Assembly (NCBI GenBank): GCA_946406555.1
Contig: CAMJLB010000010.1
Location: 1 to 40,523, forward strand
Source of the DNA: an uncultured Prevotellaceae bacterium
GTDB lineage: Bacteria; Bacteroidota; Bacteroidia; Bacteroidales; Bacteroidaceae
Direction of reading: 5' to 3'
DNA: 40,523 bases
In this document: positions 2,811-3,740 of the stretch, one piece after another
How positions within the stretch are numbered: the first letter of the stretch is position 1
Layout of the letters: each line of letters begins with the position of its first letter
Notes under the pieces: generated by a model
Database searches by the model: none
Seen by the model: the letters and a program-made list of their open reading frames with translations, nothing else
Told to the model about the DNA's origin: nothing
Position numbers and translations under genes: made by a program

Positions 2811-3740
2811 TTAGTTGGCTGCAATGGTGTCTACCTCGACGACGATGTCGTCGTCTTCGCCCGGTATGTATTCCATGGCGCTGTCGTCGAAGTCGAGCGG
2901 GAAGAGGTCGGAGAGCGTACCGCGTGCCCGTCCGTCGAACTCGATTATGCTCGGGTGCTGCTCTATCAGAGCCTTGCCCCGGTAGTAGCACCTGAGCGCT
3001 ATGCGGCCCAAGTTTCTGAATGGGTTCCAGATGCGTATCTCCATATAGTCGATGTCTTTCCACCGGCGCATCTTGCCAATGCCCCGCAGCTCGTCGTAGT
3101 GGTAGGCGCAGATGATGAGCGAGTCTTCGTCGGCCTTGGTGTATTTCTTGCCGTGCACAGTCACGTCGGCATAGACCACCATGTCGTAGGGGTAGAGGTA
3201 TGGATTGTCGTACATCATGGGCAGCACGTTCACCAGGCACGAGTCGGTACGGCGGTCGCTCACGCTGGTGGCGTAGGCCAGCGTGGTGCCCTCGCTGTAA
3301 GCCACGATGCTGTCGTTGCTGAAGCGCGCTATCTGCTCGTTGCCCGTGCGCCACCACAGCTCTTTGTTGGCCGTCTTGTCGGGGAAGAACACCACGGGAA
3401 TCTTGTAGCGGTCGCCCACCACCAGGTTCACCACCCTGCGCTCCAAGGTCATGTTGCCGGCTGCTGTGGGGTCGCCGGCTTCCCAATAGTCGCCGCAGGC
3501 GGTGAGACCGGTCATGAGCAGCAGGCAGCAGGCGGCCAGCAACCCCTTGGCCCCCGAGGTGCCGGCCCCCCCTACTGCCCCCGAGGGGGCTTCTATAGTT
3601 TTGCTATTAGGGGAAGTTTCTATTATAGCCCCCTCGGGGGCCGAAGGGGGGGCTGGTACCCAGGAGGCCGAATGGGAGGCCGAATGGGGGGCCTGATTGG
3701 TATGGTTCGTCGTCATAGTCTCTATGTTTTCGTTCGTCAT
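2811..3740 (-). CDS. Putative lipoprotein (309 aa) with an atypically long N-terminal region containing a family-1 palindromic insert
   Basis: ORF with internal start MTNENIETMTTNH at 3740. This ATG overlaps the upstream stop (ATGA at 3737-3740). Hydrophobic stretch GLLAACCLLLMTGLTACGD has a lipobox (LTAC). Confidence 0.75.
   Translation of the reverse strand: MTNENIETMTTNHTNQAPHSASHSASWVPAPPSAPEGAIIETSPNSKTIEAPSGAVGGAGTSGAKGLLAACCLLLMTGLTACGDYWEAGDPTAAGNMTLERRVVNLVVGDRYKIPVVFFPDKTANKELWWRTGNEQIARFSNDSIVAYSEGTTLAYATSVSDRRTDSCLVNVLPMMYDNPYLYPYDMVVYADVTVHGKKYTKADEDSLIICAYHYDELRGIGKMRRWKDIDYMEIRIWNPFRNLGRIALRCYYRGKALIEQHPSIIEFDGRARGTLSDLFPLDFDDSAMEYIPGEDDDIVVEVDTIAAN
3560..3661. repeat. Family-1 palindromic element, copy A (in-frame in the lipoprotein)
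   Basis: Arms gccggccccccctactgcccccgagggggcttctatag and ctattatagccccctcgggggccgaagggggggctggtacc are imperfect inverted repeats of each other. Near-identical arms occur at 30211-30327. Confidence 0.9.

Follow-up and report, generated by a model that had tools for sequence, protein, structure and literature searches.

A palindromic doublet in a lipoprotein gene

We analyzed a window of 40,523 nt, the whole stretch of contig CAMJLB010000010.1 from an uncultured Prevotellaceae bacterium (assembly GCA_946406555.1, hereafter the source genome; 2.97 Mb, assembly 84.6% complete), in which a short palindromic element is read in frame within a lipoprotein gene. The host gene P0003 (2811-3740, minus strand) encodes a prolipoprotein of 309 aa, and the element at 3565-3653 is a doublet composed of a type A arm (CTAC-hairpin-CTTC; 3565-3598, plus strand; nhmmer E=2e-10, model positions 1-34), a spacer of 21 nt, a multiple of three (3599-3619, no strand), and a type B arm inverted relative to arm A (CTTC-hairpin-CTAC; 3620-3653, minus strand; nhmmer E=4e-07; inverted repeat I2). 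Arm B is the first to be read in the gene, as APPSAPEGA. The initial annotation of this DNA had described a palindromic element in frame ahead of a lipoprotein signal sequence, which these arms bear out; the interval it gave, 3560-3661, contains the element and misses the last few codons of the peptide VPAPPSAPEGAIIETSPNSKTIEAPSGAVGGAGTSGAKG, encoded by the minus strand from 3659 to 3543 with the doublet DNA beneath it. Folded as RNA, the doublet strand forms one long hairpin of -65 kcal/mol (shuffles -40.9 +/- 3.6; z -6.7), and folded as DNA it reaches -34.8 (z -7.2). Together with about 50 recurrences of the arm in the source genome, where GCCCCCGAGGGGGCTTCTATAG, part of the arm at 3565-3598, alone has 11 exact copies, this places the palindrome far above chance expectation. 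Upstream of the doublet in the gene, inspection of the sequence points weakly to degenerate tandem repeats resembling half-arms (QAPHSASHSASWVP; 3654-3705, minus strand). An Rfam search with the doublet returned sub-threshold matches only, mostly to miRNA families, which we regard as chance similarity from a G/C-rich palindrome. A PDB search with the 30-aa peptide matched WD40 proteins at residues 5-21; we read the match as likeness to the repeated SPDGxTIASASDDKTVK motif.

P0003 carries a hydrophobic core followed by a lipobox cysteine (LLAACCLLLMTGLTAC; lipobox LTAC at residues 79-82), after which the CGDYW/CGEYW common to its homologs follows, and the protein database holds an identical 309-aa product (P0004). 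The doublet is read between the start codon at ATG 3740 and the signal-peptide core, so that 81 residues precede the cysteine at position 82. In a search of 5.8 billion proteins, homologs with a placeable lipobox had 13-37 residues before the cysteine, with one exception of 65 residues that carries another repeat, SPPFLKEGQGW...FLRRGAGGG; the region ahead of the core is therefore as unusually long as had been proposed. The element is absent from these homologs and also from those of about 15 other Prevotella genomes, so it is not carried by all orthologs, and a rumen metagenome contig recorded separately, L269, encodes this lipoprotein complete with its insert.

A second full doublet lies in the window at 30239-30321 (minus strand), with a spacer of 15 nt, in frame in an AMP-binding acyl-adenylate synthetase gene (P0001; 29743-31512, minus strand; PF00501/PF13193), where an extra partial arm adjoins it (30212-30232, plus strand) and is read as VSGAVGGA. 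As the initial annotation had stated, the two copies share a reading frame, which is the coding frame of the whole family described below. P0001 is 52% identical to PDB 3etc, and its insert (residues 396-435) stands where that structure has a turn of three residues; in an AlphaFold model of only moderate overall confidence (65.5, built from 41 sequences), the insert is the lowest-confidence segment of the chain (pLDDT about 21-30). Most aligned synthetase orthologs read GEIVVRV-GD-KPIGLF at this place and none of those aligned carries the element, though six (L093, L097, L108, L117, L121, and L131) hold clearly different inserts there. Four records deposited as uncultured Akkermansia sp. (L095, L098, L104, and L113) encode synthetases 77-80% identical to the Prevotella one, and these assemblies are probably mislabelled or contaminated.

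Copies, hosts, and coding constraints of the family

An iterative search with a hidden Markov model detected 50 arm matches in the source genome, grouped into 28 clusters, of which 26 lie inside open reading frames (ORFs). What had been described as the second copy of an element is indeed a copy, not one of an isolated pair but one of two clusters in the window out of 28 in the genome, within a family found across the genus. The repeating unit is an arm of about 34 nt in which the hairpin CCCCCTCGGGGG has a GTAG tag on one side and a GAAG tag on the other. Two arm types occur, which on the strand complementary to the arms given above read GTAG-CCCCCTCGGGGG-CT-GAAG for arm B and, with the tags swapped, GAAG-CCCCCTCGGGGG-CC-GTAG for arm A. 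Copies occur as singlets, inverted doublets, and tandem clusters; doublets possess terminal inverted repeats and are mostly 77-95 bp long, up to 119 bp in the source genome.

Among the hosts recognized with Pfam and NCBIfam are RecG, dihydrolipoyl dehydrogenase (LpdA), DnaG, DnaE, ArgS, LeuS, DXS, EtfB, PnuC, a D-aminoacyl-tRNA deacylase (DTD), 2-oxoacid oxidoreductase subunits (KorA/B), and several glycosidases, whereas MnmG, MetH, and an OPT transporter hold two inserts each. Translated inserts would place peptides such as TIEAPSGAVGGA inside hosts such as ArgS, DnaE, or PolA. In the set of 5.8 billion proteins, unrelated predicted proteins (histidine kinases, an FAD oxidoreductase, and TolC-like and GTPase families) have the peptide of the element in common and nothing else. 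The family is carried by 78 of 401 Prevotella genomes, and about 300 genomes of the order Bacteroidales yielded no match apart from the source genome. No match was found in the viral contigs (searched with the exact arm pattern), phages, or plasmids searched, and carriage by a phage or plasmid was rejected on that ground. An artefact of assembly or binning was likewise rejected, given the metagenome record L269, the 78 genomes, and G365, a genome of a single contig that carries the element in polA.

Two frames per strand are free of stop codons in the arm. Across species, 99 arms lie in ORFs of 100 aa or longer; a single frame accounts for 94 of them, and for 96 after correction of dnaE, where two of the five exceptions form a pair whose longer ORF is a shadow and whose true frame is the usual one. 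Spacers are divisible by three in all 34 coding doublets of the main set (9, 15, 18, 21, 27, 39, or 51 nt), whereas the two clear intergenic doublets, from two species, have a spacer of 17 nt. The order B then A is favored in genes by 27:4; judging from the sequences, the disfavored order would read as a hydrophobic stretch of the SIVLL type and the favored one as a soluble stretch of the ATIDPSLDSKTIEA type. Single-base codon changes in the arms show a synonymous excess (27:13 and 16:14, against an expected 30:69), in keeping with the mostly synonymous arm differences noted at first between the two copies of the window. Of the 109 clusters in a metagenome set of 80 loci, 90 keep the usual frame; 10 use another frame, several of these being likely shadow ORFs, and the remaining 9 fall outside long ORFs. 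Beyond drift, the copies are thus shaped by constraint in reading frame, in the length of the spacer, and in orientation. The initial proposal of dispersal followed by drift is supported as to the dispersal, evident from some 50 arms in 28 clusters, although drift alone does not account for the copies. The family also differs from the other repeats of its genome in not being purged from genes: 27 of 29 core sites (93%) lie in ORFs, compared to a non-coding share of 65% for 15 other repeat seeds from this genome.

The two intergenic doublets (C100:2891-2975 in the source genome, and L014) each consist of two B-type arms around the 17-nt spacer and are nearly identical as reverse complements; they are possibly a separate, non-coding subfamily.

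Origin of the copies and alternative explanations

We conclude that the doublet very probably belongs to a family of selfish repeats that are short, palindromic, and non-autonomous, are restricted to the genus Prevotella, and can be parked in frame in genes. We propose that the two inverted arms and their spacer form a hairpin of roughly 80-95 bp, and that insertion would occur into genes as readily as between them, with intragenic copies surviving only when the reading frame is kept. The tolerated frame and orientation would then read as a soluble, flexible peptide (APPSAPEGATI...KTIEAPSGAVGGA), which essential proteins could accommodate at their termini or in surface loops and which is presumably tolerated there as opposed to beneficial. 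The DNA itself may be moved by an enzyme supplied in trans that acts on the single-stranded hairpin; an HUH/RAYT-type enzyme (RAYT, REP-associated tyrosine transposase; REP, repetitive extragenic palindrome) is our first guess for this mover, a possibility we hold with rather more doubt than confidence. Insertion of one arm by itself seems possible, because in the GH32 gene of the source genome two arms flank apparently native sequence where the relative L255 has the first arm alone, and in gltB (L231, L263, and L264) arms flank about 34 apparently native codons.

Several observations weigh against this explanation. At 93%, the intragenic share nearly equals the proportion of the source genome that is coding and therefore indicates no avoidance of genes; a preference for genes over spacers is not claimed. 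The synonymous excess may derive partly from changes shared by subfamilies, and the metagenome set includes one doublet in the usual frame with a spacer of 16 nt. No close empty site at high identity was found among the compared loci, and pairwise comparisons for target-site duplication showed eroded boundaries only. Translation of the inserts is itself predicted, from DNA. Finally, the Y1_Tnp domain (PF01797) is absent from the source genome and from the element-bearing genomes G399 (100% complete), G314, G365 (one contig), and G174, and Y1 genes are present in several genomes without an element match. A resident Y1/RAYT transposase was rejected as the mover on its absence from the source genome and the lack of correlation over 20 relatives.

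Most descriptions of protein-coding palindromes come from Rickettsia and Wolbachia, which are obligate intracellular bacteria. Rickettsia palindromic elements (RPEs) and their Wolbachia counterparts are short stem-loop repeats in frame in many unrelated and often essential genes, their inserts are predicted to be compatible with protein structure, and their mover is not known (PMC10969869, PMC2229807). The Prevotella family resembles RPEs in its in-frame insertion into unrelated conserved genes (26 of 28 clusters in ORFs), in its conserved frame (96/99 arms; 34/34 spacers), and in its long stem-loop palindrome, though its doublets (mostly 77-95 bp) are slightly shorter than RPEs (about 100-150 bp). 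In contrast, it belongs to another phylum and to non-reduced rumen genomes, its arms are very G+C-rich, its orientation bias is strong, and its arm of about 34 nt is a separable unit with GTAG/GAAG tags. Likened by behavior, as opposed to by alignment with RPE sequences, the family appears to work like RPEs. Enterobacterial ERIC/YPAL and Neisseria Correia elements are also non-autonomous palindromes able to fuse in frame with host genes (PMC2229807), but are chiefly intergenic and have a target-site duplication, which was not demonstrated for the Prevotella family; terminal inverted repeats are a feature the doublets share with miniature inverted-repeat transposable elements. Among open-licence papers we found no report of such elements in Prevotella or Bacteroidota. 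As a kind, protein-coding palindromes are thus already known from Rickettsia and Wolbachia, and the Prevotella family is a variant with features of its own.

By its construction the element is like a GTAG REP doublet, which raises the alternative that it is a true REPIN, that is, a GTAG-type REP doublet mobilized by a RAYT (a Y1 transposase) that has since been lost or is absent from the assembly. The match extends to the hairpin size of 20-40 nt, GTAG at the hairpin base in arm B, and the occurrence of singlets, inverted doublets, and tandem clusters; intragenic GTAG REPs are on record for several species, including one within the R. conorii dnaE gene (PMC3733652), and the incomplete source assembly could conceal a transposase. 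Set against this, GAAG replaces GTAG at the corresponding end of arm A, the Prevotella element is mostly intragenic and frame-restricted where classical REPs are mainly extragenic, and no cognate RAYT/Y1 gene was found, either in the incomplete source assembly or in the four element-bearing relatives listed above, while such genes do occur in genomes without an element match. We therefore consider a true REPIN unlikely.

The remaining alternatives concern what becomes of the insert in its host. In the lipoprotein gene the element could be confined to the 5' untranslated region (UTR), as a hairpin regulatory or mRNA-stability element with translation starting downstream; in other species, REP inserts annotated as N-terminal often prove extragenic because the start was misannotated (PMC3733652), and a TTG at 3542, the only downstream start candidate, does exist just before the hydrophobic core. 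A start there would leave no positive residue ahead of the core, where nearly all homologs have K or R, and the lysine adjoining the core (AKG), which falls between element and core, requires an upstream start. In addition, ATG 3740 shares the sequence ATGA with the stop codon of P0002, the gene upstream (3737-6115, minus strand; no named family and no Pfam match), so that the two genes are stop-start coupled. The copy also keeps the family coding frame and a spacer divisible by three, like internal copies that cannot be UTR. The uncharged n-region and the coupling together make a downstream start unlikely, we regard a purely untranslated element as improbable, and ATG 3740, upstream of the element as first annotated, is the most likely start of the gene. 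Translation would then presumably turn the doublet into a long n-region, to be cleaved off by signal peptidase II along with the rest of the signal peptide, and for annotation the 81 residues ahead of the lipobox cysteine could mask the lipoprotein signal from predictors. Removal of the insert from RNA, or ribosomal bypassing as at mitochondrial byp elements, would yield proteins without it and would suit so stable a predicted hairpin inside essential genes, but skipping would not need the strict frame, spacer, and orientation constraints observed, and single-arm reductions and in-frame tandem expansions also keep the frame; we find this scarcely credible. There is also little chance that the peptide is selected for a function beyond mere tolerance, such as that of a flexible linker or localization tag. 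It is conserved over many hosts and the same site is kept in related species (argS in G058/G314; pyrG in G278/G114), but the hosts are functionally unrelated, orthologs lack the insert, and unrelated inserts at the same loops in other species point to permissive sites.

Putatively permissive loops and other in-frame repeats

One such site is the argS loop between ARIRSILRK and KEIELIQKM, whose apparently plain form in some species (KAEAEGLKPACAAAQLAE) is 18 residues long and which is non-repetitive, at 19-21 residues, in other Bacteroidales whose loops could be read. Across 49 sampled Prevotella species (L310-L361) it ranges from 16 to 69 residues, and many of these hold different repeat-like inserts. 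The family described here occupies the loop in the source genome and in G058, G314, G278, G399, G174, and G068; elsewhere it is filled by clearly different repeat-like inserts (NSSLFTLHSSL, PSPLTPHPSPL, PCPSPGEGSSVRKAVQSPLPSGGAGGG, and others). The loop has the look of an insertion hot spot used by several families of in-frame repeats. Judged from their sequence, these other inserts in the argS and synthetase loops apparently derive from repeats. In pyrG, G278 and G114 share an insert region that differs in content, and the G278 gene has further in-frame palindromic inserts of another family. Because argS and synthetase loops hold different in-frame inserts in different species, we tentatively suggest, though stopping just short of favoring it, that Prevotella might possess a genus-wide engine of loop diversification, as opposed to one selfish family, in which disordered loops of housekeeping proteins are generally and continually filled and refilled by many unrelated palindromic and tandem repeat families. 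If true, the same-site exchange of repeat families between species would represent a route, taken repeatedly, from junk DNA to protein sequence. The family described here resides in rumen Prevotella with genomes of 3-5 Mb, sometimes in dozens of copies and in core enzymes of replication and translation, and the cultivable strains and hundreds of related genomes make translation, neutrality, the mover, and the seeding of loops directly testable.

The lipoprotein n-region may be another insertion hot spot. Among the lipoprotein homologs, P0009, P0010, P0018, P0019, P0028, and P0029 have signal-peptide regions that perhaps stem from other palindromic repeats (SPLPWGGLGGG, SPPFLKEGQGW...FLRRGAGGG).

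Further repeat families are read within ORFs of the source genome, namely PVGRDSIAA (C62, C53, and C84), SLNAQRSTLNA (C48, C4, C13, C14, and C26), and RNPEIPKS (C9), and the hosts of further in-frame families include leuS and genes resembling RimO and IspG. In the window itself, another palindromic family of the CCCCTCCCTNNNAGGGAGGGGAGTATATAG type occurs at 19034-19264, 21006-21052, 24823-24923, and 26377-26490; it shares a layout of hairpin then TATAG with the coding family and may be related to it. Intergenic tandem repeats lie at 24203-24364 and 29524-29660, with units of about 54 nt (TTTTGTTCTTTTGT...) and 22 nt (CCGTTAGCCTGCAATACAGTAT), and an ORF of 4340 aa at 6140-19162 contains many repeat units of about 78 nt and appears BspA-like by eye.
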